A stretch of 64,000 nucleotides of DNA from Clostridia bacterium (GCA_017626145.1 JAGAJK010000095.1:1-64000), one strand, 5' to 3'. Positions 7,899 to 44,121 are shown, numbered from the stretch's first letter. The notes: a model not told the origin generated them from the sequence alone. Program-made: numbers and translations.

Positions 7899-9251
7899 TT
7901 AGTCAAGTTTAATTGGCTTTAGATTTTCAGGAAGAGCTGACTTTATAAGACTTGAAATTAACTTAATTGAATCCGTTGTCTGTTCTCCCGTGTTGAAGTT
8001 TTTAAGTGTTACTGTTTTTGAATTGATTTCATCCTCACCGATAAATATAACAAAAGGAACACCAAGCTTATTTGCATAATTCATTTTAGCCTTGAATTTT
8101 TTATTTTCAAGGTAAATCTGTGTCTTTATACCGCTTTCACGAAGTCTGTCCGTTACTGTAAGTGCATATGTCATATCCTCGCACATAGGAATAACCAATA
8201 CATCACAGGCAGATGAGCCTTCTGTATTAAGATACTCTTTATCACTTAAAATAAAGAATAATCTTGTAAGACCAATGGAAATACCTACACCCGGAAGCTT
8301 TTTATCTGTATAAAAGCCTGCCAGATTATCGTATCTTCCGCCTGAACAGATTGAGCCTATTTCAGGATGTCTGTTAAATGTCGTTTCATAAACTGTGCCG
8401 GTATAATAGTCAAGTCCTCTTGCAATAGACAAATCAATTTTAAAGTTTTCTTCCGGAACACCAAGTGCTTTGGATGCTGAGCTTACATACTCAATTTCCT
8501 TAACACCTTCATCAAAGGCTTCGTTTCCATCAGAAAATTCCTTAAGCTTACTTATCATTTCTTCATTTGTTCCCTTTACGGAAATAAATTCAATGATTTT
8601 TTCAGCTGCATCATTGCTTGCACCAATTTCAACAAGCTCTTCAACTACTTTTTCTTTACCGATTTTTTCAACCTTATCGATAGTTCTCATTACATCGGCA
8701 GCTTTATCGCTCAAGCCGAGCATTGCGAAAAATCCGTTTAAAAGCTTTCTGTTATTTATTCTTATAGTAAAATCGTCAAGACCTAATTTTCTGAAAATAT
8801 TATAAATAACCGAAGGTATTTCGGCGTCATTCATAAGACCTAATTCGCCGTCTCCTATTATATCAATATCCGACTGGTAAAATTCACGGAATCTTCCTCT
8901 CTGTGAACGTTCACCACGGTATACCTTACCTATCTGATAACGTCTGAACGGGAAGGTCAGCTCTCCGTAATTTTTTGCTACATATTTTGCAAGAGGAACC
9001 GTAAGGTCAAAACGCATACTGATATCGGTATCACCCTTGGAAAATCTGTAAATCTGCTTTTCAGTTTCTCCCCCTGCTTTTGCAAGAAGTATTTCAGAAA
9101 GCTCCAGAACAGGAGTATCCAGAGGCATAAAGCCGTAAAGACGGTATGTTTCCTCTAAAGTATTTTTAATTTTGTTGAACACAAGCTGGTCAAATGGGCT
9201 GAGCTCCATAAAGCCCGGCAGGGTTCTCGGTTTAACTAAATTTTCTTTCAA
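7899..9251 (-). CDS. hisS: Histidine--tRNA ligase
   Basis: Class II aminoacyl-tRNA synthetase charging tRNA-His, 450 residues. Motif 2 (FRRYQIGKVYRGE) lies near residue 103, the histidine-specific ARGLDYYTGTVYE near 285, motif 3 (GVGISIGLTRL) near 320, then a C-terminal anticodon-binding domain. The start is TTG at 9251 with AAGGAG 8 nt upstream. It is a single gene with its own promoter and no T-box-like leader. Its 5' end faces the phage-like cluster. Confidence 0.95.
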   Translation of the reverse strand: MKENLVKPRTLPGFMELSPFDQLVFNKIKNTLEETYRLYGFMPLDTPVLELSEILLAKAGGETEKQIYRFSKGDTDISMRFDLTVPLAKYVAKNYGELTFPFRRYQIGKVYRGERSQRGRFREFYQSDIDIIGDGELGLMNDAEIPSVIYNIFRKLGLDDFTIRINNRKLLNGFFAMLGLSDKAADVMRTIDKVEKIGKEKVVEELVEIGASNDAAEKIIEFISVKGTNEEMISKLKEFSDGNEAFDEGVKEIEYVSSASKALGVPEENFKIDLSIARGLDYYTGTVYETTFNRHPEIGSICSGGRYDNLAGFYTDKKLPGVGISIGLTRLFFILSDKEYLNTEGSSACDVLVIPMCEDMTYALTVTDRLRESGIKTQIYLENKKFKAKMNYANKLGVPFVIFIGEDEINSKTVTLKNFNTGEQTTDSIKLISSLIKSALPENLKPIKLD

Positions 9252-9362: not shown

Positions 9363-9430
9363 TGTCATTAATTGTCATTCAGGTTTATGAAAACATGTCA
9401 TTGAATGTCATGTGGACTCTTTTGTATACT
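9363..9430 (+). promoter_or_regulatory. Cluster promoter with two TGTCA-N5-TGTCA direct-repeat sites
   Basis: Two copies of a direct repeat, TGTCATTAATTGTCA (9363-9377) and TGTCATTGAATGTCA (9396-9410), lie 33 bp apart. The second ends 14 nt before a TATACT -10 box (9425-9430) and replaces a good -35 hexamer (only TTGAAT at 9401). This looks like an activator or alternative-sigma site. The same arrangement stands before the barnase fusion at 35 kb. Confidence 0.65.
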
Positions 9431-9475
9431 TAACACCGGAAAGCAAAACCACTCATTTGCTTTCTTGTATACAAA
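9421..9475 (+). promoter_or_regulatory. Paired TTGTATAC operator-like sites flanking an inner hairpin
   Basis: TTTGTATAC (9421-9429) and GTATACAAA (9467-9475) form an inverted repeat; the second contains the perfect palindrome TTGTATACAA (9465-9474). Inside, AAAGCAAA (9440-9447) pairs with TTTGCTTT (9456-9463). The left arm covers the -10 box, so the outer repeat probably acts as a DNA operator, while the inner stem can form in the RNA leader. Confidence 0.45.
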
Positions 9476-9496
9476 GGACAGAGAAAGGAGTAAACC

Positions 9497-9682
9497 ATGG
9501 AAAAAAACATCTTATGCAAAAGTGAAATTCTTCACCAGCTGTCACGTCTTGCGGTTAACGAAGAGGTTGCGGCAAATTACCGTATTAAGGCGCTTGAGCT
9601 TCTGGGAAAAGAAAAAGGTATGTTTGGTGAAAAAGAGCATTCGGTTATAGGCACTGTTAAAATCGTGGATGATATCAGATGA
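9497..9682 (+). CDS. Truncated small terminase subunit (C-terminal half only)
   Basis: A 61-residue protein whose sequence (RIKALELLGKEKGMF near 29-43, then VKIVDDI near the end) matches, from my knowledge of the family, the C-terminal part of phage small terminases. The N-terminal helix-turn-helix that recognises phage DNA is missing, and the ATG at 9497 with AAAGGAG 6 nt upstream leaves no room for it. It overlaps the large subunit by 4 nt, the usual TerS-TerL arrangement. In a functional particle this would suggest packaging without sequence recognition. The family call rests on pattern and position. Confidence 0.65.
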   Translation: MEKNILCKSEILHQLSRLAVNEEVAANYRIKALELLGKEKGMFGEKEHSVIGTVKIVDDIR

Positions 9683-10872
9683 ATTTAAAAGAATGTATCG
9701 CCCCCTCCTTTTTTGAAGTTCACTCAAGCATAAAAAAAGGCCTTCATACCCATTACTGGTTAAAAGGCGGAAGAGGTTCCTGTAAATCATCCTTTGTATC
9801 AATCGAAATTATACTCGGTCTTATGAAAGAGGAAAATGTCGGCTGTGTTGCCGTGAGGCGTGTGGCAGGCTGTATCAGAGACAGCATCTTCGCACAGCTT
9901 CGGTGGGCAATAGAAAAGCTTAAGGTTTCACACTTATGGCAGGTTAAAAGCTCTGTTCCCGAGCTGATTTATACACCTAACGGAAACCGTATACTTTTCA
10001 GGGGTGCTGATGATGTTACAAAAATCAAATCCACAAAGCTTTCAAAGGGATACATAAAATACGTCTGGTTTGAAGAATGTGATGAATTTAAAAGCTACGA
10101 CGATATTTTATCAATTAATCAGTCTCTTTTAAGAGGCGGTGAGGAATTTCGGGTGTTCTATACATTTAACCCACCGAAGCTTCATTCACACTGGATTAAT
10201 AAGATTTCCCTTACGGAAAATGATGATAAGCTTATTCACCATTCCGACTACACCTCCGTACCCATTGACTGGTTGGGAAAGCAATTCTTCAAAGAAGCAG
10301 AATCGCTCAGGGCGAGTAACAAAAGGCTTTACGACAACCAGTATCTGGGAATTGTTACCGGCGGTGAAGGGCTTATTCTCCCTCATTTCAAGATTGAAGA
10401 GCTGAAAAAGGATTTTGAGGTCAGGTTTCTGGGTCAGGATTTCGGCTTTAATCACGCCAATGCGATTTTAGAGCTGTGCTTTTTCGAAAACACAATTTAT
10501 ATTTCAAAGGAATTGTACGTCCGTGAAATGGACACCCGTGAAATAATTGAATTAGCAGAAGGAATGTTTGATAAAAAGCTTATTATGTGGTGCGACAGTG
10601 CTGAGCCTGACCGCATACGCTCCTGGCGCAAGGCGGGCTACCGTGCTTCTCCCGTTTCAAAGGAAGCTAATTCAGTTAATGCCCAGATTGATTTTTTAAA
10701 ATCAAGGGAGCTGATAATTAATCCCGCCTGTGCTAACACCATTTCGGAAATTTCCTCCTGGAACTGGATAAAGGACAAGGTAACAGGCGAATATACCGAC
10801 AGACCCACCCCCTTTAAGGATGATGCTATGGCAGCACTCAGATACGGCATCGAGTATATGAGAAAAATTTAG
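9679..10872 (+). CDS. terL: Terminase large subunit (PBSX/SPP1 type)
   Basis: DNA-packaging motor, 397 residues. The N-terminal ATPase shows Walker A GGRGSCKSSF (near 32) and Walker B YVWFEECDEF (near 124). The C-terminal RNase H-like nuclease keeps acidic residues in GQDFGFNH (near 255), WCDSAEPD (near 305) and KDDAMAALRYG (near 382). Both activities therefore look intact. It starts inside the TerS stop codon (ATGA overlap), and the portal follows after 31 nt. Confidence 0.92.
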   Translation: MNLKECIAPSFFEVHSSIKKGLHTHYWLKGGRGSCKSSFVSIEIILGLMKEENVGCVAVRRVAGCIRDSIFAQLRWAIEKLKVSHLWQVKSSVPELIYTPNGNRILFRGADDVTKIKSTKLSKGYIKYVWFEECDEFKSYDDILSINQSLLRGGEEFRVFYTFNPPKLHSHWINKISLTENDDKLIHHSDYTSVPIDWLGKQFFKEAESLRASNKRLYDNQYLGIVTGGEGLILPHFKIEELKKDFEVRFLGQDFGFNHANAILELCFFENTIYISKELYVREMDTREIIELAEGMFDKKLIMWCDSAEPDRIRSWRKAGYRASPVSKEANSVNAQIDFLKSRELIINPACANTISEISSWNWIKDKVTGEYTDRPTPFKDDAMAALRYGIEYMRKI

Positions 10873-10903
10873 GGCATACGCCCTGACACAAGGAGTTGAT
10901 TTA

Positions 10904-12235
10904 ATGAATATTGCCGCAATTTGTGATTATCTGAGTAACAAGCTCGGATTTCGTATTGAGTCGGGATTTCACCAGTATATAAATCAATGGGCAGACTGGT
11001 ACAAAGGCTATCACAAGCCTTTTCACCACTACTGTGAGTACAACGGAAAAGACACGGTAGAGCTTGACAGATATTCGCTTAAAATGGCAAAAAAAGTTTG
11101 TGAGGACTGGGCTAATATGCTTTTAAATGAAAACACCCGGATTTGTGCAGAGGACCCCAATGCAGATTCATTCCTGAAAGAGGTTCTTGATAAAAACAAT
11201 TTCCGTGTTAATGCCAATGCACTTATTGAAAAAACCTTTGCGTTGGGAACGGGAGCATTTGCCCTGAGACTTGAGGGCTATAAAATTAGTCTTGATTACA
11301 TTACCGCCGACTGTATTATTCCAATCAATTACAGAAACGGTGAAATAACGGAGGTTGCCTTTGTTTCCGATGTGATTCACAAGGGAAAGCATTACACCTA
11401 CATTGAATCACATCTTACCGATGAATATGGCTATTACGTTATTAACAATGAATATCTCGACAGTACTATGAGTCCTGTATTTATCGACAACAAGGTTGTG
11501 AGAAAATACGAAACCAACAGTAAAACACCCTGGTTTGTCATAATCAGACCAAACATCACAAACAACATATGTTTTTCCTCACCTATGGGAATTTCGGTTT
11601 ATGCAAACGCCATTGACGTATTAAAGGGTATAGACCTTGCCTACGACAATCTTTGCACCGACTTTTTCTTAGGAGGAAAAATGATTATGATGAACGAAGC
11701 GGTCATAGGTAGAGAAGAAAACGGCAGACGTGTCGCTCCGCAGTTTTCCAAGAGACGGCTTTTTATGTCGGTGGGTGACAGTATTATAGACGGTGCAATG
11801 TACCGCGAATACAATCCTCTTTTAAGAGTTGATGAAAACACAGCAGGCATAAATGCACAGCTTAATTTTCTGTCTTCAAAATGCGGTCTGGGTGAAAGAT
11901 ACTATAATTTTGACAAGTACGACATCAATACTGCAACTCAGGTAATGTCGGAAAACTCGACGCTGTTCAGAACAGTTAAAAAGCACGAGCTTGTTTTAGA
12001 GCGTGCATTAATTAACCTTTGCAAGGTCATTTTAGAAGCAGGTGGCTTTAAGGACAGCGAAATTTCAGTTATCTTTGACGACAGCATCATTGAAGATACT
12101 GCTACGCTCAAAGCTCAGGACCGCAACGACGTTTCCATGGGTATTATGCAGAAATACGAATACCGTATGAAATATTACGGTGAAAATGAAGAAACTGCAA
12201 GAAAGAAGGTTACCGACACAGTTGAAAACACTTAA
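10904..12235 (+). CDS. Phage portal protein (SPP1 gp6-like)
   Basis: A 443-residue portal, the dodecameric ring at the capsid vertex through which DNA passes and to which the tail attaches. It follows TerL, begins after AAGGAG and a short AGGGCATACGCCCT hairpin, and has the mixed alpha/beta wing-stem layout of this family by length and position. In SPP1-like phages a minor head protein (gp7) gene follows the portal; none is present here. Instead the scaffold gene overlaps the portal's last codons. Confidence 0.85.
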   Translation: MNIAAICDYLSNKLGFRIESGFHQYINQWADWYKGYHKPFHHYCEYNGKDTVELDRYSLKMAKKVCEDWANMLLNENTRICAEDPNADSFLKEVLDKNNFRVNANALIEKTFALGTGAFALRLEGYKISLDYITADCIIPINYRNGEITEVAFVSDVIHKGKHYTYIESHLTDEYGYYVINNEYLDSTMSPVFIDNKVVRKYETNSKTPWFVIIRPNITNNICFSSPMGISVYANAIDVLKGIDLAYDNLCTDFFLGGKMIMMNEAVIGREENGRRVAPQFSKRRLFMSVGDSIIDGAMYREYNPLLRVDENTAGINAQLNFLSSKCGLGERYYNFDKYDINTATQVMSENSTLFRTVKKHELVLERALINLCKVILEAGGFKDSEISVIFDDSIIEDTATLKAQDRNDVSMGIMQKYEYRMKYYGENEETARKKVTDTVENT

Positions 12236-12635
12236 AGCACTGTTAGCTGAGCTTGGTGCAGGCGAAGAATTAATTAATTCCTGCACCGATTGTGAGCTCT
12301 ATTTTAAAGATGAGCTCAGTCAGCTTAAGGAAGATTACGAAAACAAGCTTGCTCAAAGTGAAATTGACAAAATCGTTGAAACAACACTTGTCAGCTTCGG
12401 AGCAAAAAACAATCTTGCGGTCAAGGCTCTTTTAAACCTTGAAAATGCACAGCTCGAAAACGGAACAGTTAAGGGGCTTAACGAACAGCTTGGAAAAATC
12501 AAAGCTGAAAACGGCTATTTGTTCAAATCCGAGCAAAGCATTACCGCAGGAAGCCACAACTCATTTTCGTCAAATGATTTTGATGGTATGAGTGATGAAC
12601 AATATTATTCTATTAAATACGGAAAGGAAAATTAA
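12222..12635 (+). CDS. Capsid scaffold protein (GP20-like)
   Basis: A charged, helical protein of about 137 residues. Its central AKNNLAVKALLNLENAQ segment and following GLNEQLGKIKAE resemble the phage minor structural GP20 scaffold family. A scaffold guides coat assembly and leaves the head before packaging. I place the start at TTG 12222, overlapping the portal by 14 nt, with AAGAAGG about 11 nt upstream; the frame stays open upstream but that part lies inside the portal gene. The coat gene follows after 2 nt. Confidence 0.7.
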   Translation: MKTLKALLAELGAGEELINSCTDCELYFKDELSQLKEDYENKLAQSEIDKIVETTLVSFGAKNNLAVKALLNLENAQLENGTVKGLNEQLGKIKAENGYLFKSEQSITAGSHNSFSSNDFDGMSDEQYYSIKYGKEN

Positions 12636-12637
12636 TT

Positions 12638-13747
12638 ATGAACGAATTTATTACTATTAAAGAAATTGCCAGACAGGCACTCCCAAGACTTATTGAAAAT
12701 CTTGTATTCCCTAATCTCATTCACAGAGATTTCTCAAATGACTTTGCTTTAGGCAAAGGTGACAAAATTCAGGTAAGAAAGCCTGTTATTCTCTCAGCAG
12801 AGGAATTTGATGCAGAAACAGGTACAAATGCTCAGGATATCAACGAAACAAGCGTTGAGGTTACTTTGGACAAGCTTGCAACTGTAGATGCTGAATTTTC
12901 TTCACTTCAGGCGGCAACAAGCATTGACGACCTTAACAGAATCTTCATTGAGCCTGCTGCTGCAGCTCTTGCGGCAAAGATTAACTCAGACGGTCTTAAC
13001 CTTTACGCAGATATTCCTTATGTTACAGGTGAGGCAGGCACAACACCTTCAAGCCTTAATTCCCTTGCAGGCGTAAGAAAGGCTCTTAACGAAAATAAGG
13101 TTCCTGTTTCTCCGAGAGTTGCAGTATGGGATACTGAAGCCGATGCGGCATTTACCACAGTTGATGCTATTGTAAATGCTGAAAAGAGCGGTTCAACAGC
13201 GGCACTTCGTGACGGCTCAATCGGAAGAATTTTCGGTCTTGACAATTATATGTCTCAGGCTGTTAAAAAGCACACATCAGGCATTACAAAGGCAACAAGT
13301 GTTAAGGTAGATGCTGCCGTAAACGAGGGTGATACAACACTTTCTGTTAAGGCAACAGCTCTCACAGGAAAGCTTGTTAAGGGTGATATTCTCACCATTG
13401 AAGGTAAGAATTATACAGTTACGGCTGACACCGAGGAAGCTGCAAGCAATGCAATTGCAGGTATTTGTGTTTACCCTGCTCTTGATGCTTATGCGTCTGA
13501 TACAGCAGTTACAATTGCTGCATCACACACAGCAAATCTCGCCTTCAACCCTATGGCATTTGCCTTCGTTACAAGACCTCTTGCGGCACCTTCAGGTGTT
13601 GAAAGCTACGTTACAAGCTACAACGGCATCACACTTCGTGTTGTTAAGGGCTACGATATGAAATTCAAGAAGGAAATGATTTCTATGGATGTCCTTTACG
13701 GCTACAAGACTATGTATCCGGAGCTTGCAGTAAGAGTATTAGGATAG
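12638..13747 (+). CDS. Major capsid protein, P22 coat family
   Basis: A 369-residue coat protein. The N-terminus (IAREA-like opening, ENLVFPNLIHRDF, GDKIQVRKPV) follows the pattern of P22 gp5-type coats, which have the HK97 fold. A Gly/Thr-rich, strand-forming insertion around residues 215-295 could be an extra surface or insertion domain as in P22. It is preceded by the scaffold and followed by connector genes. P22-type coats are usually seen with short-tailed phages, but this cluster encodes a siphovirus-like tail. Confidence 0.85.
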   Translation: MNEFITIKEIARQALPRLIENLVFPNLIHRDFSNDFALGKGDKIQVRKPVILSAEEFDAETGTNAQDINETSVEVTLDKLATVDAEFSSLQAATSIDDLNRIFIEPAAAALAAKINSDGLNLYADIPYVTGEAGTTPSSLNSLAGVRKALNENKVPVSPRVAVWDTEADAAFTTVDAIVNAEKSGSTAALRDGSIGRIFGLDNYMSQAVKKHTSGITKATSVKVDAAVNEGDTTLSVKATALTGKLVKGDILTIEGKNYTVTADTEEAASNAIAGICVYPALDAYASDTAVTIAASHTANLAFNPMAFAFVTRPLAAPSGVESYVTSYNGITLRVVKGYDMKFKKEMISMDVLYGYKTMYPELAVRVLG

Positions 13748-13756
13748 GTGATTTAA

Positions 13757-14086
13757 TTGAAATACGTTTCTTATCCATATTATATGGAAGAATATTTAGG
13801 CAGAAGTATCCCCAACTCCAACGAATTTTTCAGTATATGCATCCGTGCCGAGGCTTACATAGACAAGCTTACCGACGGTCATATAACAGAGGTTACCGAC
13901 GATATTAAAAATGCAGTTTGCGCAGTATGTGACGTTATATACCGTGCAGACAGACAAAAGGGTATCAAAAGTGAAAGTGTTGACGGTTATTCTGTAACAC
14001 TTGACAGCGAAGCCTGCTCACAGAAAACACTTTACGATACTGCCTGTTTGTTTCTGCCGTCATACCTTTTGTACCGGGGGATTTAA
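13757..14086 (+). CDS. Head-tail connector protein
   Basis: A 109-residue mostly helical protein in the position of the first head-tail adaptor (HK97 gp6/SPP1 gp15 type), which docks under the portal. The pattern of a short N-terminal stretch, helices around AEAYIDKLTDG and IKNAVCAVCDVIYR, and a terminal helix fits that class. The start is TTG with AGGTGA 6 nt upstream. Assigned mainly from position and size. Confidence 0.65.
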   Translation: MKYVSYPYYMEEYLGRSIPNSNEFFSICIRAEAYIDKLTDGHITEVTDDIKNAVCAVCDVIYRADRQKGIKSESVDGYSVTLDSEACSQKTLYDTACLFLPSYLLYRGI

Positions 14087-14359
14087 ATGGACTTTACGCA
14101 ATCAGTTAAAATCATAAACCCCGACAAAAGTGAACTTAGCTATTCTAACGCATATATTTACGATGACAACAGCATAGCTACATACCGTGGAGATTTTTTG
14201 CCTAATAAAAAACACATTGCTATAATACCAACTCAAAGCTGCGATGTACAGACAGGGGCTGTAGCAATGTACGAAAATAAAACTCGGACCGTTACCGCCG
14301 TTTGCGACAACACGGTTCGCTCAAGGGTTTTACCTCATATAAGGCTCACCCTGGAATAA
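14087..14359 (+). CDS. Head-closure (stopper)-like protein
   Basis: A 90-residue beta-rich protein starting one base after the previous stop. Size, strand-rich composition and position between connector and tail terminator match SPP1 gp16-type head-closure proteins that seal the portal after packaging. The sequence itself is not decisive. Confidence 0.55.
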   Translation: MDFTQSVKIINPDKSELSYSNAYIYDDNSIATYRGDFLPNKKHIAIIPTQSCDVQTGAVAMYENKTRTVTAVCDNTVRSRVLPHIRLTLE

Positions 14360-14366
14360 CTATCTC

Positions 14367-14392
14367 GCCTGCAAAGCATATGCTTTGCAGGC
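14367..14392 (+). other. Perfect 26-bp intercistronic palindrome
   Basis: GCCTGCAAAGCAT and its exact complement form a 13-bp inverted repeat, followed by AAAGGA and the next start. No T-run follows, so it is more likely a processing or stability hairpin than a terminator. Confidence 0.6.
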
Positions 14393-14409
14393 AGAAAGGA
14401 ATTTATCAT

Positions 14410-14805
14410 ATGTTAAAAGAGCTGATTGAAATTTTCAGTGAATGCCAACAGATGAAAGCAATCACCCCCTGCTCAAGTGCAGTTGATTGTGATTCTGTTG
14501 CACTTATGCCGAAAAGCTCGGGAATAATAAAAAAATACACCGACGGAAAAACACTTGAATATGTTCGTTTAAAGCTATTGTACAAGGCTCAGTATTCTCC
14601 CGACGGAGACAAGAATTTTATTGCTGATTCTTTTTTCGAGAATGTAAGCACCTGGCTGCGTGAACGCTTTGAAAAATCTTCGGCGGATAACGGCAAATAC
14701 AGCTTTAATCTTTCAGATATTTCACCGTCATATACTGTGGAAAAGAAAACACCGTCGGTTGCTATTTATTCACTTGAGCTTACGGTTAATTATTTAAATT
14801 TATAA
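14410..14805 (+). CDS. Tail terminator / minor tail-completion protein
   Basis: A 131-residue protein with alternating helices and strands, placed between head-closure and tail tube, the place of gp17/tail-terminator proteins. The start is ATG 14410 with AAAGGA upstream; the longer open frame extends into the preceding hairpin and is not used. Assignment is by gene order. Confidence 0.55.
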   Translation: MLKELIEIFSECQQMKAITPCSSAVDCDSVALMPKSSGIIKKYTDGKTLEYVRLKLLYKAQYSPDGDKNFIADSFFENVSTWLRERFEKSSADNGKYSFNLSDISPSYTVEKKTPSVAIYSLELTVNYLNL

Positions 14806-14823
14806 ACAAGAAAGGATTTTACA

Positions 14824-15312
14824 ATGGGAAAGCTTATTAAAAGAAGTGACAAGCTTGCCTTTTACGGTGTTGACGACGTAAATGGTACTGTTTATCACAG
14901 AATGAAGGGATTTACCGAAATATCGGTTTCCAAAAATCCCCAGGAATATGCCAGAAAATACATTGATGAAGACTTTGAGCAGTCTGACGTAGTAGGCTTC
15001 TCGCCTCAGATTTCTTTTGCTTTTGACTGTTTCAGTGACAATCCTGTACATACAGACATTGTTTCAATTACAGACAACGAGCTTTTAGGTACTGATGCAG
15101 TAAGAAGCATAATTGTCGTGGACCTTACACGTGGAAATGAAACTGACGGTTTTTATGCAATCAAGCGTGACTACTCAGTTATTCCCGACACAGAAGGTGC
15201 AGAAAAGGAAGCTTACACCTATAGCGGTCACTTCAAGGTCAATTCACAAAAGATATTCGGAACGGCTGTCTCCGATAACGATTTTGAAACTATAACCTTT
15301 ACAGAAGAATAA
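14824..15312 (+). CDS. Major tail tube protein
   Basis: A 162-residue protein in the position of the tail tube subunit, with the strand-rich make-up and an N-terminal SDKLAFYGV-like opening typical of small siphovirus tube proteins. It polymerises in hexameric rings around the tape measure. A strong ribosome binding site precedes it and a 12-bp hairpin follows, consistent with high expression of a major structural protein. Confidence 0.7.
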   Translation: MGKLIKRSDKLAFYGVDDVNGTVYHRMKGFTEISVSKNPQEYARKYIDEDFEQSDVVGFSPQISFAFDCFSDNPVHTDIVSITDNELLGTDAVRSIIVVDLTRGNETDGFYAIKRDYSVIPDTEGAEKEAYTYSGHFKVNSQKIFGTAVSDNDFETITFTEE

Positions 15313-15317
15313 TTTGT

Positions 15318-15343
15318 ACAGGCAGCGGAAATCCGCTGCCTGT
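15318..15343 (+). other. Intercistronic hairpin after the tail tube gene
   Basis: ACAGGCAGCGGA and its exact complement form a 12-bp stem with a 2-nt loop. There is no poly-T tail; the next gene's AAGGAG follows 10 nt later. Confidence 0.65.
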
Positions 15344-15363
15344 CTTAAGAAAGGAGATTTTAT

Positions 15364-15894
15364 ATGAAGTTTACCGTACCTCTGCCCGAGGGGGTTTATC
15401 ATAACGATAAATTTTATCCCATTAATACAGATTTTAAAACGTGGATTAAAATTGATGAGCTTATGAACAGCAGTATTGTAAATGAAACAGAAAAGACGGC
15501 AACAATTCTGTCCCTTGCATACAAATCATCGTTCCCTGAAAATATTGACTCCGCTCTGGCAGGTATTCTTGATTTTTATACTATGTATTCACCTGAAGCA
15601 AAAGTCGGTTTTAAAAAGGTATACTCTTTTGAAAAAGATGCATCCTTTATATTCAGCGCATTTTTTACACAGTACGGGATTGACCTTTTTGAAACAGATA
15701 TGCACTGGTGGAAGTTCAGAGCTTTGTTCGATGCAATTGATGAGAACACTCTGTTCGGAAAAATTGTCCGTTACAGGGCAGTAAATTTAGAAGACATAAA
15801 AGATAAAAGCAAAAAAAGATTTATAAGGAAAATGAAGCAGATATATTCTCTCGGTCAGCAGGAAAACATTGCGGAGGCTTTATTTGCACTGTAA
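15364..15894 (+). CDS. Gp15-family tail assembly chaperone
   Basis: A 176-residue protein that matches the bacteriophage Gp15 type by layout: an N-terminal FYPINTDFKTWIKIDELM segment and a Trp/Phe-rich middle (DMHWWKFRALFDAI). In that family the protein binds the tape measure during tail assembly. It sits directly upstream of the tape measure. In many phages a frameshift extends this protein; I see no clear slippery site, and the next gene has its own AAAGGAGG. Confidence 0.75.
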   Translation: MKFTVPLPEGVYHNDKFYPINTDFKTWIKIDELMNSSIVNETEKTATILSLAYKSSFPENIDSALAGILDFYTMYSPEAKVGFKKVYSFEKDASFIFSAFFTQYGIDLFETDMHWWKFRALFDAIDENTLFGKIVRYRAVNLEDIKDKSKKRFIRKMKQIYSLGQQENIAEALFAL

Positions 15895-15924
15895 TAAGTA
15901 CAACTGCTTAAGAAAGGAGGAATT

Positions 15925-17067
15925 ATGAACTATATTGAATCGGCTTTAAACAGCAATATGGTTGATGTTAACTCAAAGCTTAAAAACGATGCAACCAGGA
16001 ATGCTGAAGAAGTACAAAAGGAAATTGATAAGCTAAATGACCTTATCAGTATAAGTAACGAAAAAATACAACGTTGGCAGAATGCCAAGCTTACTGCCGA
16101 CAAATATCAGAAAAAGACATTAAGTGCCTTGATTCAGGGTGAAAAAGAGATTCTTATAACAAACAAGCTTTTACTTGCCGATGAGAAAGAAAAGCAAAAG
16201 GAATATCTTGCAACCGCAAAGGCATATGTAGAGGCAAGTGAAATTATTAAAGATAGCTACAAGGAATGTATCGGAAATTTAAACGAAGATATGGAAATTC
16301 TTGACACAAGCTACGATATATGGCTTCAGAATACAGGAAAAACCGCCTCGGGAGCCGATTTGCTGGAAAAAGAAACCGGCATACTAAACGAAAAACTGAA
16401 AATTCAGACCGATATAGTAAATAACACTAAAATAGCATACGACGAAATGGTGGAAAAATACGGTGCGGCACATTCTGAAAGTAAGGCTCTTTATTCTGTG
16501 CTTCTTGACGAGGTTTACGCTTACAACAAAATAACTGAAGCTATTGAAGGCGTTAATATGGCACAGCAAGCTTCAAAAAATGACAGTATTTTTGCTATGA
16601 AGAATTACCTTGACACTTACAAGGATGTTCTTTCAAAAGAAGGCTTCAGCGATGAAGATATATATAAAGTGGCACGCAGGGTAAGCGGCTACGACAAAAT
16701 TTCAGAGCAGGAAAAAATAGAAATTCCCGTAAAGCTTACCGTTGATAACGGAGATGTAAAGGAAGTGGCAGAAGATATTTCACTTACTGTCAATACCCAT
16801 CTTGAAGCAGATGAAGCATATAAAAACACAGGTTCACAATTTGCACAGGCACTGGGTGACGGATTTATCGAAAAATTTGAATCAGTAGCCGGACTTATGC
16901 TTGCAGCTGTAGAAAGTACAGCTCGTGATGCTGCACATTCTATGCAGAGTGCTGTTAATAACAACACGACAAATTACACCTTCACCTCTACTGCTCAGAC
17001 TATTTATCAGCAGATTGAAGATGCCAAAAGAATGGAAGAAATGAACAAAGCGAGGGGGATTACATAA
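15925..17067 (+). CDS. Short tape measure protein
   Basis: A 380-residue protein, mostly charged coiled coil over residues 5-260, in the tape-measure position between tail chaperone and distal tail protein. Tape measures set tail length at roughly 0.15 nm per residue, so this one would specify about 57 nm, far shorter than most siphoviruses. No clear membrane segments, peptidase or lytic transglycosylase domain is visible. The 3' end overlaps the next start by one base (TAATG). Confidence 0.7.
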   Translation: MNYIESALNSNMVDVNSKLKNDATRNAEEVQKEIDKLNDLISISNEKIQRWQNAKLTADKYQKKTLSALIQGEKEILITNKLLLADEKEKQKEYLATAKAYVEASEIIKDSYKECIGNLNEDMEILDTSYDIWLQNTGKTASGADLLEKETGILNEKLKIQTDIVNNTKIAYDEMVEKYGAAHSESKALYSVLLDEVYAYNKITEAIEGVNMAQQASKNDSIFAMKNYLDTYKDVLSKEGFSDEDIYKVARRVSGYDKISEQEKIEIPVKLTVDNGDVKEVAEDISLTVNTHLEADEAYKNTGSQFAQALGDGFIEKFESVAGLMLAAVESTARDAAHSMQSAVNNNTTNYTFTSTAQTIYQQIEDAKRMEEMNKARGIT

Positions 17068-17897
17068 TGAGATTAATTTTTAAAACAGATGCCGGAGTCA
17101 TTACTATGAGCGGCAAATCCGACACGGACTATGTTATAAAATCGGTAAGCGGTCTTTCTGTTCCGGAAAGAAACTACGAATGTATCAGCTATTACGGTGC
17201 AGACGGAAAAACAACTCTTAACTCCTTTTTTTCCTCAAGAATTATCACACTTAGTGCAGATATTTACAACTGCAATAAAACGCTTATGAGAAGAACCTCA
17301 AAAATTCTCTTCAATGAAGGTACTCTTACCGTAACAGAGGGACATATTAAAAAAATGATTTCCTACAAGCCTCTTAAGCTTGATTTTGGAGAAAGACACG
17401 GTTTAATTCAGAGCTTTGCTTTCCAGATTGAATGCGACAATCCTTACTTTTACGATGTTTTTAATACAACAAGAGCTATTTACACGAGAAAAAATAATAT
17501 CACCTCCCCTTTTACCCTGCCGACGGTATTTTCTACACGTGTTTCAGAAACGGTAATTGTAAACAACGGCGATGTTAAGGTTTATCCTACTGTGGTTATA
17601 AGCCCTGCATCAAGCTCCGATGCATCGGGAACATATACCATCTCGAACCTTACTACAGGAGCATCAATTATGTTTAGTCTTACGTGCCAGAGCGGTGAAA
17701 AAATCACAGCGGATTTCGCTAAAAGAACTATCACAAGCAGTTTAAAGGGTAGTATTGCCAACAGCTTAAAAAAAGGAAATATGAGTGACTTTTTCCTGAG
17801 CAAGGGAGAAAATATAATTACCTGCACCTGCAGTAACACCTCCGTTTCACCCAACAGCATATTAATATTTAAAAATCATTATACGGAGGCAATATAA
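17067..17897 (+). CDS. Distal tail protein (Dit-like)
   Basis: A 276-residue beta-rich protein after the tape measure, fitting the siphovirus distal-tail family, whose hexamer caps the tube and carries the baseplate. The N-terminal part (about 1-130) would be the ring domain and the rest a strand-rich accessory domain. The assignment combines order, length and strand pattern. Confidence 0.7.
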   Translation: MRLIFKTDAGVITMSGKSDTDYVIKSVSGLSVPERNYECISYYGADGKTTLNSFFSSRIITLSADIYNCNKTLMRRTSKILFNEGTLTVTEGHIKKMISYKPLKLDFGERHGLIQSFAFQIECDNPYFYDVFNTTRAIYTRKNNITSPFTLPTVFSTRVSETVIVNNGDVKVYPTVVISPASSSDASGTYTISNLTTGASIMFSLTCQSGEKITADFAKRTITSSLKGSIANSLKKGNMSDFFLSKGENIITCTCSNTSVSPNSILIFKNHYTEAI

Positions 17898-19022
17898 ATG
17901 CAGGATTTAAGATTTTACAATTTTGATTTTACTCTTCTTCATATCGAACACGACTTCTCATCCGTATACTGGAACTTAAAATATAATGCCGTAGGAAGCT
18001 TTGAGGCTGAATTTGCATGTAAGGATGAGCTTAATAAGCTTTGCTCGGAAGAAAAATATCTGGTTGTCTGCCAGGGTGACCGTCAGGCAATAATCACAGG
18101 AAGGCAGATAAAAAACAATAAACTTAAGCTATTCGGCAGAACCGTAAATTTTCTTCTTGAAAAAAGAGTTCTTATGCCATTTTCCACAGAAAATCTTGAT
18201 TCAAAAAAAGGCAGTGCAAGTCTTGCGCAATATATAGTGTCAGAAACCTGTGCAGACTTTGCAGTTCTTGGTTCTACAGTAATTTCTGATAACGATATTT
18301 CTTTTGAAAGAAGCGTTATGACTACTGTAGAAAATGCCGTACGTGACTGTCTTGAATCAGATGGGCTCGGTCACAGACTTGTCTTTGATACTGAGAACAA
18401 AAAATGGGTTTTTGACATCATACAGGGGCGTAAAAGCGACCTTGTTGTAAGCGAAGATATGCTCAATGCTTTTGAAAGTGAGTACACTCATTCGCTTCTT
18501 GATTTCTGCACCTCAGGCTATTACCGCCGTGATTACAATTTCAAAGGTGACTGGAACCCTGTATCAAACTCCCCTGCTTTAAGCAACAATACTTCAGAAA
18601 ATTATGCTTCAGCTTACCGTGCTACGGCAGATGCAGAAATATTTAACCTCAGTATAAATAAGGGTGATTATATTATATGTAACACACCCGACGGGAAATG
18701 GCAGAAAAGTGACAAAGCCGACGGATTTGACGTTTATATTCCCGGCACTTACAAAGGTGCAAAGTGCTGGGATGCAATTTTCAATTCGGACACCGAAAGT
18801 GAAGCTCTTGAAATTCTTGAAAAAAACAAGCTTACAGAAAAATGCTCTGCCAATATGAGAAATCTTGAATTTGGAAAGGATTTCAAATTAGGCGACATTG
18901 TTACCTTTAATCAGAAAATCGGCAAAGACTTAATTTCGCTTAATTTAAAAATCACATCGGTTACACTATGGTTTGAGCAAGGCTCTGCTATGGGTGTAAA
19001 GCCCGAATTTACTCAAATATAA
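17898..19022 (+). CDS. Tail tip protein (Gp37/Tal N-domain-like)
   Basis: A 374-residue protein with the beta-rich pattern of ReqiPepy6 Gp37-like or Tal N-terminal tail proteins (opening FDFTLLHIEHDFSSVYW, GSFEAEF). It would form the tail hub beneath the distal ring. No hydrolase or lysin domain is attached at the C-terminus, unlike many prophage Tal proteins. It begins directly after the Dit stop. Confidence 0.7.
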   Translation: MQDLRFYNFDFTLLHIEHDFSSVYWNLKYNAVGSFEAEFACKDELNKLCSEEKYLVVCQGDRQAIITGRQIKNNKLKLFGRTVNFLLEKRVLMPFSTENLDSKKGSASLAQYIVSETCADFAVLGSTVISDNDISFERSVMTTVENAVRDCLESDGLGHRLVFDTENKKWVFDIIQGRKSDLVVSEDMLNAFESEYTHSLLDFCTSGYYRRDYNFKGDWNPVSNSPALSNNTSENYASAYRATADAEIFNLSINKGDYIICNTPDGKWQKSDKADGFDVYIPGTYKGAKCWDAIFNSDTESEALEILEKNKLTEKCSANMRNLEFGKDFKLGDIVTFNQKIGKDLISLNLKITSVTLWFEQGSAMGVKPEFTQI

Positions 19023-19078
19023 TATTTCGTCCGCCACAGCGAATACATAAAATTTTTGTGGCAGAAAGGATATAATTT

Positions 19079-19957
19079 ATGGGTTATACGTACAGTTTTT
19101 TTGATAATCAGACAATAGGTGCACAGGAGCTTAATAACCTTGCCAAAAGATTTGTCACCGAGGGAGTTGCAGATATTTTTACAGACGGACTTCCTCATAA
19201 TATATCGGACTTGAATTCGATTGTTACCGCAAATGCAACAGACGGTGTTGTTCCCGATACCGTAAATTCGCTTAAGGTCTACGCCTCAGGCTCTGTTGCA
19301 ACCATTTCCGCAGGAACTGCATTTTTTGCCGACGGCACAATAATGGAGGTTGATTCTGATGGAATTTCGCTGACATTTACCAAAGGTGTTTTAAATTACA
19401 TTTATCTTATTTCTGATACCACTACCAATTCCTGCCGTGCTGAATGTTCTAAAACATTGTTAAGCGGTAACAACGTTTTACTTGCAGTAATTGAAAAGGA
19501 CGGAAGTGTTACAGACAAGAGAAAATATGCAAAAGGTAAAATTCCTTCCGCATATTCATCAGCGCTGGGGCTTATCACCAAAAAGGAAATATACTGGAAT
19601 CAGGCAGACCTTAAGAATATGACACCAAAGGAAATTCCGCTTTCCACAGGAACTGCACGAGGTATGTTTATGTATATGGGAGAATCTCTCTCCAAAACCA
19701 AAACATTTGGCTTTGTAACATTTAATGCAAAGGGTGAAGCGGACTTTTACATAAGCGGATGCCTTATGGGAAGCCTTAACGGCTACGCATCTGCACCCTC
19801 TCTGTCAAGCTCTGAGCTTATCATTCAGAACGGAACGGATGTAAGAATTTCACTCCGCGCAACCGCTTCTGTTTCCGACGGAAAAGTTATAATAACTCCC
19901 TTTGCAACAGTGTCTGGCGGCGAACACGAAGTACACGCAGATTTCTACGTTTTTTAA
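19079..19957 (+). CDS. Baseplate / receptor-binding-type tail protein
   Basis: The last gene of the cluster, 292 residues. The first 60 residues begin with an aromatic YTYSFFDNQTIGAQELN segment seen in phage upper baseplate proteins. The remainder is strand-rich (SGSVATISAGTAFFADG, a jelly-roll-like C-terminus), suitable for a host-binding tip. No chaperone, depolymerase or lysis gene follows, and no terminator separates it from the downstream sugar-acid genes, which have their own promoter. Confidence 0.65.
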   Translation: MGYTYSFFDNQTIGAQELNNLAKRFVTEGVADIFTDGLPHNISDLNSIVTANATDGVVPDTVNSLKVYASGSVATISAGTAFFADGTIMEVDSDGISLTFTKGVLNYIYLISDTTTNSCRAECSKTLLSGNNVLLAVIEKDGSVTDKRKYAKGKIPSAYSSALGLITKKEIYWNQADLKNMTPKEIPLSTGTARGMFMYMGESLSKTKTFGFVTFNAKGEADFYISGCLMGSLNGYASAPSLSSSELIIQNGTDVRISLRATASVSDGKVIITPFATVSGGEHEVHADFYVF

Positions 19958-34949: not shown

Positions 34950-34984
34950 TGTCATTTAATGTCACATAGCTTATTTGCTAAAAT
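34950..34984 (+). promoter_or_regulatory. TGTCA-N5-TGTCA promoter of the minor-head/barnase gene
   Basis: TGTCATTTAATGTCA (34950-34964) ends exactly 14 nt before TAAAAT (34979-34984). Sequence and spacing match the phage-like cluster promoter (9396-9430); over 25 nt starting at GAAAAC the two agree at 21 positions. Confidence 0.65.
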
Positions 34985-35009
34985 ACCATTGACAAAGGAG
35001 GTGATAGCA

Positions 35010-35525
35010 ATTTTAAATACAACTAAAAGTACAAAATGGAAAATGTGGTCATCAATAAATGACTTCCGCAGATGTTTGACTTGCGAGGGAAACCATGGTA
35101 AAATATACGAAAAGTACGAAACACCAAATCCAAAGCCACCCGCTCATTTTAACTGCCGCTGCACAATAGAAGCCTTAAAAGCTTTACTTGCAGGCACAGC
35201 AACAAATAACGGCAGTAACGGCGCAGACTGGTACCTGAAATATTTTTCAAAGCTGCCTGATTATTATATTTCGATAAATGATGCAATGGTAGTAGGTTGG
35301 AAACGCAAAAAAACTTTAAATTACTTTTGTCCCGGGAAAATGATGTTTGGCGGAACTTATAAAAACAAAAACAAACATTTGCCCGAATCACCGGGAAGAA
35401 TATGGTATGAAGCCGATATTAATTACACTTCAGGAAAACGAAACACTTCACGAATTGTCTTTTCAAACGACGGTCTGATTTTCGTTACTTACGACCACTA
35501 CCATACATTCTACGAAATTATTTAA
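35010..35525 (+). CDS. Phage minor-head (Mu-F) fragment fused to a barnase-type RNase
   Basis: About 171 residues. Residues 1-55 match the C-terminal zinc motif of SPP1 gp7/Mu F minor head proteins: DFRRCLTC, then PPAHFNCRC. After a Gly/Asn linker, residues 70-171 are a barnase-type ribonuclease. EADINYTSG (Glu73), KRNTSRI (Arg83, Arg87) and DHYHTF (His102) keep barnase's catalytic residues, while Lys27 is replaced by Ile. There is no signal peptide. No ATG/GTG/TTG follows the AAAGGAGGTGA at 34994-35004 at normal spacing; ATT at 35010 does. Two barstar genes follow. I infer a particle-associated toxin. Confidence 0.8.
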   Translation: MLNTTKSTKWKMWSSINDFRRCLTCEGNHGKIYEKYETPNPKPPAHFNCRCTIEALKALLAGTATNNGSNGADWYLKYFSKLPDYYISINDAMVVGWKRKKTLNYFCPGKMMFGGTYKNKNKHLPESPGRIWYEADINYTSGKRNTSRIVFSNDGLIFVTYDHYHTFYEII

Positions 35526-35536
35526 GGAGGATATTG

Positions 35537-35872
35537 ATGAATTACAATAATAATTCTATAAATTTTAACGATGAAAATGAAACTATAGGTGATCATATTG
35601 TTTTAGATTTCACAAACTGTAATCATTGGCATAAAATTCATACAGTTTTAAAAGAAGCTTTTGATTTCCCCGACTATTACGGAGAAAACTGGAGTGCACT
35701 TTGGGATTGCCTGCGTGAACTATTTTTCTTCGATGAAACACCGCGCACAGTAGAAATTTACGGAATAAGTTCTTTAAACGAAGAATACCAAAATTACTGT
35801 AAAACTATGCTTGAGATTTTCGATGAAGCGCAAAAGGAATTCCCTCATATGACAATAAAACATATATATTAA
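35537..35872 (+). CDS. Barstar-family RNase inhibitor 1
   Basis: A 111-residue immunity protein for the preceding barnase. The helix-2 motif FPDYYGENWSALWDCL matches barstar's inhibitory helix; Trp38 and Asp39 are kept, while Asp35, a main barnase contact, is Ser. The N-terminal 20 residues are an Asn-rich addition. ATG 35537 is 6 nt after AAGGAGG; a TTG directly upstream is less likely. It is 11 nt after the toxin stop, so it is co-translated in operon with it. Confidence 0.9.
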   Translation: MNYNNNSINFNDENETIGDHIVLDFTNCNHWHKIHTVLKEAFDFPDYYGENWSALWDCLRELFFFDETPRTVEIYGISSLNEEYQNYCKTMLEIFDEAQKEFPHMTIKHIY

Positions 35873-35897
35873 TTTTTGTTTAAATGGAGGTTTAGCT

Positions 35898-36224
35898 ATG
35901 AACGACAAGAATTACGATGAAAATGCCTTTAAGGATATTACTGAGAATCCTATTATTTTAGACTTTACCGACTGTAACCACTATGATAAAATTCACACAA
36001 TTTTAAAGGATAAGTTCGGTCTGCCCGATTATTACGGAAGAAATTGGGCTGCTTTATGGGACTGTTTAAGATACTTATTTTATGACGAGGGTGAGATTAT
36101 TGTTGAAATTTACGGTCTTAATACCTTAACAGAAGAATATCAGAACTACTGCAAAATAATGCTTGAAGTCTTTGAAGATGTGCATGAGAACACACCAAAT
36201 GTGATTTTTAAAGTAATGTCTTAA
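35898..36224 (+). CDS. Barstar-family RNase inhibitor 2
   Basis: A second barstar, 108 residues, clearly a paralogue of the first (shared ILDFTDCNHYDKIHT-type and EEYQNYCKIMLE segments). Its inhibitory helix reads LPDYYGRNWAALWDCL, with Ala at barstar position 35. It has its own TGGAGG site. Two different inhibitors beside one toxin suggest protection against related toxin variants, or gene accumulation after toxin exchange. A weak hairpin follows. Confidence 0.9.
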   Translation: MNDKNYDENAFKDITENPIILDFTDCNHYDKIHTILKDKFGLPDYYGRNWAALWDCLRYLFYDEGEIIVEIYGLNTLTEEYQNYCKIMLEVFEDVHENTPNVIFKVMS

Positions 36225-38311: not shown

Positions 38312-39076
38312 TTATATGATTTCATATTTGGTTTTATTTTCTTTAAACACTTTTTTAAGTCCTGCAGGGATGTCGGGGGCATCTGTTATAAAGCAACTGA
38401 TTGCGTCTAAGGGAGCAAGCTTTGCAAAGCCGACTCTTCCGATTTTACTCTTGTCACAAAGATAAAACTTTTCTTTGGAATTTGCAATCATTCTCTGCTT
38501 TATTCCGCATTCAAGCTCGTTACTTTCAAGAACGCCTTTATCTTCAGAAATACCCTTACTGCTGAAAAACACCTTACTTGCAAAGTAGCATTTTTCAATA
38601 GTATCTTCTGCAACGGAGCCGATAAATGACTGATTGTCACTTACTTTGCCACCAATTGCAATTAACTTTATTCCCTCACAGCCCGAAAGCTCGTTTATAA
38701 CTCTTATAGAATTGGTTATAACGGTTATATTGCTCATCTTCTTAAGTAGCTTTGCAATATAAAAGGTGGTGGTTGAAGCATCCAAAAATACCGTATCGCC
38801 GGGAACAATATGTTCAACTGCCGCACGTGCAACCTTTTCCTTTGATTCGGAATTTGTGTGCTTTCTTTTTTCGAGAGAAAGCTCCACGTTGTTTTCATCA
38901 ATGGGAACTGCACCGCCGTGAGTTCTTACAAGCACTTCTTGTTTTTCAAGCTTTTCAAGGTCACGTCTTACCGTTTCCTCTGCAACTGAAAACTCTGTAC
39001 TCAGCTTACTGACCCACACCGCACCGTCACGGTCCAGAATCTCTAATATCTTTTTTTGTCTTTCAAGTGCAAACAT
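38312..39076 (-). CDS. DeoR-family transcriptional regulator
   Basis: A 254-residue repressor. An N-terminal DeoR winged helix (FALERQKKILEILDRDGAVWVSKLSTEFSV-like, with EETVRRDLEKLEK as recognition region) precedes a sugar-phosphate-sensing domain (LDASTTTFYIAKLL, FIGSVAEDTIEK). It is the last gene of the microcompartment operon, 14 nt after pduL, and is the obvious local regulator. DeoR proteins usually respond to phosphorylated sugars; fuculose- or rhamnulose-1-phosphate would fit the aldolase in the same operon, but that is inference. Confidence 0.88.
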   Translation of the reverse strand: MFALERQKKILEILDRDGAVWVSKLSTEFSVAEETVRRDLEKLEKQEVLVRTHGGAVPIDENNVELSLEKRKHTNSESKEKVARAAVEHIVPGDTVFLDASTTTFYIAKLLKKMSNITVITNSIRVINELSGCEGIKLIAIGGKVSDNQSFIGSVAEDTIEKCYFASKVFFSSKGISEDKGVLESNELECGIKQRMIANSKEKFYLCDKSKIGRVGFAKLAPLDAISCFITDAPDIPAGLKKVFKENKTKYEII

Positions 39077-39090
39077 ACTTACACTCCTGT

Positions 39091-39735
39091 TTATTTTTTA
39101 ATAATGGTAACCATTGTACCGTTCTTGATTCCTGCCGAGTTGGCATCATCGGTATCGATATGCATTTCATTTCTGAAATCGTCTCTTACTCTTACCTGAA
39201 CATCGTAGAATTTTGTAGGCTTAACGGAATCAACCAAAACATCAACATAATCGTTATCCTTAATGCCGTTTTCCTCTGCAAATTTAGGTTCTAAATGAAT
39301 GTGGCGGTTTGCAATAATAACACCCTCGTTAAGATATACAACGCCTTTAGGACCTACAATTACCATCTTTTCGGAGCCTTCAATTTTACCTGAAGGACGA
39401 ACAGGAGGACTTACCTTTAAGATAAATGTATCTGTTTTTGAAATTTCAACCTGTGTGTTTGCTCTTACAGGACCAAGTACTCTTACCTTTTCAATGGATT
39501 TAAGTGAAGGACCAACTAAAGTAACACATTCTTCAGATGCATATTCTCTGCCCATAAGATACTTCTTAATTGTAAGCTCGTAGCCTTTACCGAAAAGGAT
39601 ATCAAGATGCTCACGGGAAAGATGTATATGACGCTGAGATACGCCTACTACAACTTTATCTTTATTATCTATTTTTTCCTGAACCGAAGAAATTGCTTTT
39701 CTTACGGCTTCGCGGATTACATTTTCGTCAAACAT
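39091..39735 (-). CDS. pduL: PduL-type phosphate propanoyltransferase
   Basis: Converts propionyl-CoA and phosphate to propionyl-phosphate and regenerates CoA within the microcompartment. About 214 residues with two His-rich zinc motifs, SQRHIHLS near 36 and NRHIHLEP near 145, the hallmark of the family. The first 20 residues form an amphipathic helix (ENVIREAVRKAISS), a typical encapsulation peptide. ATG 39735 is 10 nt from AAAGG; TTG 39741 is 4 nt away and also possible. No propionate kinase lies in the locus. Confidence 0.92.
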   Translation of the reverse strand: MFDENVIREAVRKAISSVQEKIDNKDKVVVGVSQRHIHLSREHLDILFGKGYELTIKKYLMGREYASEECVTLVGPSLKSIEKVRVLGPVRANTQVEISKTDTFILKVSPPVRPSGKIEGSEKMVIVGPKGVVYLNEGVIIANRHIHLEPKFAEENGIKDNDYVDVLVDSVKPTKFYDVQVRVRDDFRNEMHIDTDDANSAGIKNGTMVTIIKK

Positions 39736-39751
39736 AGCCAATCAGCCTTTC

Positions 39752-40390
39752 TTAACTTTCTGTATCAAAAAACTTCATTACTTCAGCATGAGGGTTAGCA
39801 ATAACAGCGTCACCGAACTTTTCGCCTAAAGCTGTTGCTGACTTAATACCTGCTTCAATTGCAGCCTTAACTGCTGAAACGTGACCCATTATAACAAAGG
39901 TAACAAGTCGTCCGCCAAGTCTTTTTTCAGTATGGATAACCTTAACGTCAGCCGCCTTTAACATATCGTCAAGACCTGCGATAGCTGCAACAAGACCCTG
40001 AATTTCCAGAAGTCCGATTGCTTCGTACTGCTTTATTGGTGTTTCAACTCCGATAAAACTCTTTGGAAGCTTTTTGTTATACTTATCCTTGTTGATATCA
40101 AGCTTGTAACCCATTAATTCAACCATATCGCCGGGATTTGCGATTACGTGTGAAATAATGTACTTACCTTCATTTTTAGCATATTCAACGCCTGCATCAA
40201 CTGCCGCTCTTACTGCGGCAACCTCACCTTCGATTTTAACAATCATAACCAAAGGAGCAGGAGCTGTTGCACTTTTAGGTCTGTTTCTGTCCATTGCAAC
40301 AACGGCTACATCAGCAGTTTTTGCCGCTAAATCCGCAACACAAACAGCTGTCGTGAAACTGTAAACCTCAATCATTCCTAATGCTTTCAT
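39752..40390 (-). CDS. Tandem-domain BMC-T shell protein
   Basis: A 212-residue protein with two BMC domains, residues 1-95 (ALGMIEVYSFTTAVCVADLA) and about 120-205 (AIGLLEIQGLVAAIAGLDDML). Such proteins form pseudohexameric trimers that tile the facets. The first domain has a longer insert (residues 34-45, RNRPKSATAPAP) that could shape the pore. No Fe-S cysteine is seen near the pore, unlike the PduT-like protein upstream. The role is probably in gated transport of larger metabolites. Confidence 0.88.
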   Translation of the reverse strand: MKALGMIEVYSFTTAVCVADLAAKTADVAVVAMDRNRPKSATAPAPLVMIVKIEGEVAAVRAAVDAGVEYAKNEGKYIISHVIANPGDMVELMGYKLDINKDKYNKKLPKSFIGVETPIKQYEAIGLLEIQGLVAAIAGLDDMLKAADVKVIHTEKRLGGRLVTFVIMGHVSAVKAAIEAGIKSATALGEKFGDAVIANPHAEVMKFFDTES

Positions 40391-40425
40391 TTATTTTCAC
40401 CTTTCGTAAGTTGCGTTTAGTAAAA

Positions 40426-41826: not shown

Positions 41827-41884
41827 TTTCCATCATACCTTTCCGCCCCACGAGGCTAAAATTTAAGAAAATTCATTTTAGGTA

Positions 41885-41913
41885 TTGCGCAAGATAAATT
41901 TGTGTGGTATACT
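41885..41913 (+). promoter_or_regulatory. Promoter of the ribbon-helix-helix gene
   Basis: TTGCGC (41885-41890), 17 nt, TATACT (41908-41913), 37 nt before the start codon. Confidence 0.55.
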
Positions 41914-41949
41914 TAAATCATAAAATCAATTCCGAAAGGTGATGATTAA

Positions 41950-42171: not shown

Positions 42172-42187
42172 AAGAATCTATTCTTAT

Positions 42188-42216: not shown

Positions 42217-42221
42217 CTTAT

Positions 42222-42770: not shown

Positions 42771-42775
42771 TTACT

Positions 42776-44104: not shown

Positions 44105-44121
44105 TTTTGCATATTCCTTTC

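Follow-up and report, generated by a model that had tools for sequence, protein, structure and literature searches.

A clostridial gene transfer agent (GTA) was described in 2026, the FpGTA of Faecalibacterium, whose small terminase (TerS) is reported to be without an obvious DNA-binding domain and whose second locus carries baseplate, fibre, holin and endolysin genes (PMC12946183). In the RcGTA of Rhodobacter capsulatus, the lysis, spike and fibre loci lie elsewhere under shared control (PMC9638019). As for minor head proteins, each SPP1 capsid has one or two copies of the MuF protein Gp7 bound to its portal, and 96% of chromosomal muf genes are found in prophages or their remnants, usually beside a portal gene (PMC5576092). 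Here we describe a compact cluster of phage-derived packaging, head and tail genes in a 64-kb stretch from a Clostridia bacterium (GCA_017626145.1, JAGAJK010000095.1:1-64000; the whole stretch is called the window, and the genome that holds it G000), whose promoter design recurs before lysis, tail and toxin genes at other places. The original prediction, made from the window alone, had taken the cluster for a maintained GTA-like locus and called such a case in this group noteworthy; since FpGTA, it is no longer unprecedented (PMC12946183).

The cluster comprises 14 intact open genes, all on the + strand, at 9497-19957 between divergent hisS and eda (Table 1; genes were identified by matches to Pfam-type and phrog profiles, and coordinates follow the window). 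Its GC content is 39.6% vs 38.9% for the window, and TerL and coat are single copy in G000. Packaging, head, connector, tail and baseplate genes are all present and open, and housekeeping genes adjoin on both sides, just as had been described; of the interval given at the time, 9363-19957, the gene set is real, but position 9363 is a promoter box and coding begins at 9497. Likewise in agreement, no integrase, repressor, replication, holin or endolysin gene was evident by inspection of open reading frames (ORFs) in the 64 kb, the flanking ORFs having been profile-scanned in part. No tRNA was found, and no convincing att-like repeats flank it. What is present is thus the structural and packaging part of a phage, as in GTAs, and the integrase, att sites, replication and lysis genes of a complete temperate prophage are missing from the cluster.

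A search of G000 with the cluster returned a second copy of a 28-bp stretch that lies upstream of it. The promoter design to which it belongs, TGTCATTGAATGTCAY followed after 13 bp by TATAAT, recurs at unlinked loci of G000. Its core, TGTCATTNNNTGTCAT, occurs in four perfect copies in the 2.78 Mb of this genome, for a rough base-composition expectation of 0.2. Two of these precede the cluster; the others are upstream of a gene for a 574-residue protein (contig C61) and of an amidase-SLH/holin pair (C13). If C is allowed at the end of the core, window position 34950, before a MuF-barnase gene and two barstar genes, and C90:94254, before a truncated barstar, are added. The order was represented in the collection searched by six genomes from only four genera. 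Among these, G001 (JAFQRW010000020.1, from goat colon) has only three perfect copies, before its own cluster and before two MuF-barnase/barstar pairs, and G005 (JAGARF010000106.1, from water deer colon) has a one-mismatch copy before TerS. In 9/9 promoters of the three genomes (five in G000, three in G001, one in G005) a -10-like hexamer lies exactly 13 bp after the second repeat, most have a TTGAAT-like -35 between the repeats, and all precede particle, lysis or toxin/immunity genes. The spacer sequences vary and the spacing is constant, meaning that the box is not a copied repeat element. The composite site is found at five places in G000, and no other of equal quality occurred in the 158 kb of G000 scanned. 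Because no -10 follows it at 13 bp, the first box before the cluster, at 9363, is predicted to be probably an extra regulator site. Matches in G002-G004 were at background level (in G002 the sole perfect match is internal to a carB-like gene), and the other one-mismatch boxes in G000 (C14, C37, C73 and window 54566), having no -10 at 13 bp or an unfitting context, were rejected.

The shared promoter therefore connects dispersed lysis and adhesion genes with the cluster, as expected of a GTA, and predicts their co-expression. The 574-residue protein is tied to the particle independently, by sequence homology: its start resembles (34% over 220 residues) a tail-fibre-type gene just after the G001 cluster. 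The designation "receptor-binding-type" derives from this homology, as the protein's own profile matches are uninformative. Lysis genes had been expected to lie elsewhere, and an amidase-holin cassette was indeed located on another contig behind the same promoter. A second holin in G000, with an amidase 62-63% identical to the boxed one and a very large protein, lies on C64 (L203), apparently within a separate phage-like region. At C90:94254 (L125 8255-8544) the promoter stands before a barstar that stops after 67 residues, probably a decaying immunity gene.

The 61-residue TerS of the window gave no Pfam match, and its counterparts in the G001 and G005 sets (64-78 residues) gave none to Terminase_2. 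Of the five phage TerS scanned, four align well with Terminase_2 over the full profile; the remaining one gives a weak match to the N-terminal half of the profile. The compact-set proteins (61-78 residues) thus lack an N-terminal part present in the TerS of related phages, which suggests that specific DNA binding, dispensed with by GTAs, may have been lost here too.

G001 and G005 represent two further genera and have the set with its gene order preserved, single copy and open, up to a contig end in G005. Identities of the window proteins to those of G001/G005 are 62/61% for TerL, 59/64% for portal and 78/76% for coat; with ribosomal protein L1 at 77/84%, the divergence of the coat, judged by identity, is close to that of L1. 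The latter marker replaced hisS, which was dropped because a search of five same-family relatives, two of which are >= 96% complete, gave the window HisS (7899-9251) no hit at E <= 1e-30; these relatives may use a different HisS type. Coat profile matches were obtained in 6 of the 391 genomes of the class-wide set. In trees, the three compact sets grouped apart from phages (support 99/94 for coat, 100/100 for portal, 93/83 for TerL). NG86 ratios of nonsynonymous to synonymous substitution (dN/dS) for TerL, portal and coat were about 0.1-0.2 where dS was finite, well in line with the predicted values below 1; they are rough, because dS was saturated in the remaining comparisons. In other relatives, portal and scaffold are separated by a space of one to two or more genes, which is missing from the compact sets. 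TerL relatives were rejected as evidence for GTAs, most of those in the class sitting in phages or in clusters with little else in common. Three-genus conservation, monophyly with respect to phages, purifying selection, the trimmed TerS and the lysis genes at another locus behind the shared promoter make it very probable that the cluster is a domesticated particle locus; vertical inheritance at the hisS-eda site, for which the original prediction had proposed a check, was not seen.

We consider the best explanation, and a likely one, to be a domesticated GTA-like particle system of five transcription units with one promoter design: the head/tail cluster, the receptor-binding-type tail protein, the amidase-holin lysis cassette, the MuF-barnase/barstar unit and the (truncated) barstar. 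One regulator, binding direct repeats TGTCMT-N4-TGTCAY around the -35, would switch on all five in the same cell. With the N-terminal DNA-binding part of TerS gone, packaging could begin without a specific site, so that heads would fill with host DNA; we regard packaging of host DNA as probable. The lysis cassette would then release the particles. The MuF piece, derived from a minor head protein that is normally portal-bound, would attach the RNase to the particle, inside or on its surface, and co-produced barstars would protect producers and kin. That the particle carries the RNase we put at slightly short of an even chance. The full picture, in which GTA particles also carry an RNase toxin from which barstar shields kin, so that DNA exchange and inhibition of non-kin form one dispersed regulon, is offered more tentatively still.

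The toxin unit, with its promoter, spans window 34950-36224. The start of the MuF-barnase ORF, an ATT at 35010, was deduced from the ribosome-binding site, the frame being open from 34935. Positions 64-111 of the 112-position Mu F domain are joined to an RNase that keeps the residues aligned with a Glu, two Arg and a His of barnase, which we take to be its catalytic residues. The Phage_Mu_F match was above cut-off in the window copy and below it in the two G001 copies; the Ribonuclease and Barstar matches were above cut-off. As in MuF polymorphic toxins, a MuF domain is thus combined with a C-terminal toxin and an immunity gene, but the gene lies neither in a prophage nor beside portal or terminase: it is 15 kb downstream of the cluster in the same window, and about 27 and 71 kb from it in G001. 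The cluster itself has no minor head (MuF) gene, so that, on sequence grounds, the missing part is present elsewhere, fused to an RNase and under the same switch. We found no relevant literature linking GTAs with MuF or polymorphic toxins.

These pairs could also be ordinary toxin-immunity cassettes under the same promoter, serving, e.g., to arrest or kill the cell that makes them, and no cargo at all; we give this only a little less weight than carriage by the particle. Consistent with it, just the last ~45 residues of the MuF domain remain, and about 20 of the 391 class genomes have comparable short MuF-barnase genes on their own, in most cases with a barstar behind them and, in other families, with no promoter box in front. 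On the other hand, the cluster is without a MuF gene of its own although its portal belongs to the SPP1 type, which in SPP1 pairs with the MuF protein Gp7 (PMC5576092); a cysteine motif and the linker are kept in three copies from two genera; and the same pair adjoins holin and amidase genes in other families. In the latter loci, L194 (16907-19118) and L204 (3639-5830), a short MuF-barnase gene with barstar lies directly behind an amidase, or a holin plus amidase, that of L194 among housekeeping and sugar-polymer genes. Both may be second loci of further GTA-like systems.

A toxin-immunity pair under the particle's promoter would also suit a domesticated killing particle resembling PBSX, one that packs some DNA and kills competitors by its tail or RNase and transfers no genes; PBSX particles, for their part, contain host DNA that they do not inject (PMC12946183). 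Purifying selection nevertheless acts on TerL, portal, scaffold and coat, so that DNA-filled heads still seem to matter. As such selection on head genes holds for PBSX too, sequence cannot decide between a GTA and a killing particle, and we rate the latter as rather unlikely.

Defective prophages often keep late genes, and full phages with 73-74% similar coats exist, as would be expected if the cluster were a decaying prophage remnant that had lost its early and lysis genes and stayed open by chance. Still, no late gene is broken, the same trimmed set occurs in three genera with TerL and portal 59-64% identical, dN/dS is low and the promoters are conserved at unlinked loci, all of which already make decay very unlikely. 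Least probable of all is a capsid-forming phage satellite or other mobile island moving between strains, with which the differing neighbourhoods in the three genera would agree, but not the absence of integrase and replication genes (by ORF inspection) and of att repeats, the presence of tail genes or the unlinked lysis and toxin genes.

Several observations weigh against the GTA-like system that we favour. Its particles, packaged DNA and transfer are predictions from sequence. Only three members are known, the G005 assembly is 65% complete, and the fourth genus (three genomes) gave no TerL or coat match. The proposed comparison of the hisS-eda interval did not bear out vertical inheritance: the set sits among different neighbouring genes in G001 and G005, meaning that the site is not fixed across genera. 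Searches of G001 gave no hit for the holin, nor a full-length one for the boxed amidase; moreover, the Gp15 and tape-measure-slot genes are missing there between the tube-like gene and Dit (L006 2762-4110), the rest being kept, so that the G001 tail may be very short or unfinished, or the missing tail genes may lie elsewhere. No regulator for the promoter box turned up, and no search aimed at regulators was made. Finally, the complete phages with similar coats, e.g., in Clostridium tertium and C. nigeriense, imply no great distance between the domesticated set and free phages; the resemblance is much lower in the rest of their head and packaging genes (TerL 40-42%).

Table 1. Features of the proposed particle system in G000 (window numbering unless a contig is named)
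Feature	Position	Strand	Evidence and remarks
First copy of direct-repeat box, TGTCATTAATTGTCAT	9363..9378	+	Perfect pattern match
Cluster promoter: TGTCATTGAATGTCAT, 13 bp, TATACT (-10)	9396..9430	+	Architecture common to eight other promoters, three genomes
terS, 61 aa, without N-terminal DNA-binding part	9497..9682	+	phrog_51 positions 197-230 of 261, E 5e-4 (weak); 59-62% identical short forms in G005, G001
terL, large terminase	9679..10872	+	Terminase_3 E 8e-38
Portal, SPP1 gp6 type	10904..12235	+	phrog_533 E 6e-101; SPP1_portal E 1e-11
Head scaffold	12180..12635	+	Phage_scaffold E 1e-17
Major coat protein, P22 type	12638..13747	+	P22_CoatProtein E 4e-45
Head-tail adaptor	13757..14086	+	phrog_541 E 3e-20
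Head closure-like, by position	14087..14359	+	Weak profile only; positional counterparts in G001, G005, mutually 33% alike
Tail completion protein	14302..14805	+	phrog_3266 E 1e-7; true start probably downstream of 14302
Tail tube-like protein	14824..15312	+	phrog_3099 E 2e-36; tube role suggested by position
Gp15 tail assembly protein	15364..15894	+	Phage_Gp15 E 3e-39; missing in G001
380-aa protein, tape-measure slot	15925..17067	+	Position only, no informative profile match; missing in G001
Dit, distal tail	17067..17897	+	phrog_33 E 2e-18
Tal/Gp37-like baseplate protein	17898..19022	+	Sipho_Gp37 E 1e-20
Distal tail/fibre protein, 292 aa, no family assigned	19079..19957	+	No informative profile match; 32% homologue at same place in G001
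Toxin-unit promoter: TGTCATTTAATGTCAC, 13 bp, TAAAAT	34950..34984	+	Promoter pattern match
MuF end fused to barnase-type RNase	35010..35525	+	Ribonuclease E 2e-9; Phage_Mu_F E 7e-7, above cut-off; barnase in PDB E 4e-25
Barstar (RNase inhibitor) 1	35534..35872	+	Barstar E 3e-21
Barstar (RNase inhibitor) 2	35898..36224	+	Barstar E 7e-19
574-aa tail/receptor-binding-type gene	C61 6961-8685		Same promoter
Amidase-SLH + holin lysis cassette	C13 82659-83698		Same promoter; pair identified by profile

Elsewhere in the window, 38312-52845 resembles a glycyl-radical-enzyme bacterial microcompartment locus, with shell proteins, an aldehyde dehydrogenase and a glycyl radical enzyme with its activase (from reading of translations only).

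A second, unrelated compact head-tail set was encountered in family f11 of the same class, beside an S24-type regulator (loci L036, L038, L039, L042 and L044). TerS has 70-92 residues there, the tape measure 492-580, and nothing lies between portal and scaffold; three of the five loci (L036, L039, L044) have the same M16 peptidase flank. In full phages of f11 and f17, TerS is mostly longer (155-250 residues) and tape measures reach 1563-1814 residues. Two of three f11 TerS match Terminase_2 only at about positions 108-136 of 141, the third weakly at 99-135, and the compact-set TerL form a clade of their own (99/97). By these sequence features the f11 set is probably a separate, independent GTA-like domestication, suggesting that domestication has been repeated in Clostridia. 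Shared promoters together with a trimmed TerS would provide a sequence test that separates such loci from prophage scraps. A toxin-immunity pair is, in addition, tied to a domesticated particle; if the RNase travels in it, exchanging genes and killing non-kin would amount to a single process.

With the MuF polymorphic toxins of temperate phages the window unit shares the MuF domain, the C-terminal toxin, the small immunity gene behind it and occurrence in Firmicutes (PMC5576092); unlike in those, the gene stands apart, MuF is reduced to its end and the link to the particle is through the promoter. PBSX of Bacillus subtilis is similarly a defective phage, fixed in a Gram-positive host, and its particles contain random pieces of host DNA (PMC12946183), as proposed here. 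Unlike what we propose for the window cluster, it is described as not injecting its DNA and as killing like a tailocin. PBSX is also larger, with its lysis genes within the same element. RcGTA likewise combines a trimmed structural cluster with lysis and tail-fibre genes at other loci and with shared regulation, the latter predicted here from promoters (PMC9638019). It differs in belonging to another bacterial class and in its regulators, GafA and CtrA. We know of no toxin-immunity pair in RcGTA. A further likeness, drawn from the published description, is to FpGTA, which has a 10.5 kb main operon starting TerS-TerL-portal-scaffold-coat in a Clostridia host, a TerS with no obvious DNA-binding domain and a second unlinked locus with tail/receptor and lysis genes (PMC12946183). 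FpGTA has ten ORFs and is read as probably podovirus-like, whereas the present cluster has ~14 genes with siphovirus-type Dit and Gp37; here the lysis, receptor and toxin genes are in separate places, and neither a MuF-barnase nor a shared promoter has been reported for FpGTA. The window thus adds a clostridial GTA-like case from a different order of bacteria, together with a promoter code and a list of its dispersed parts.
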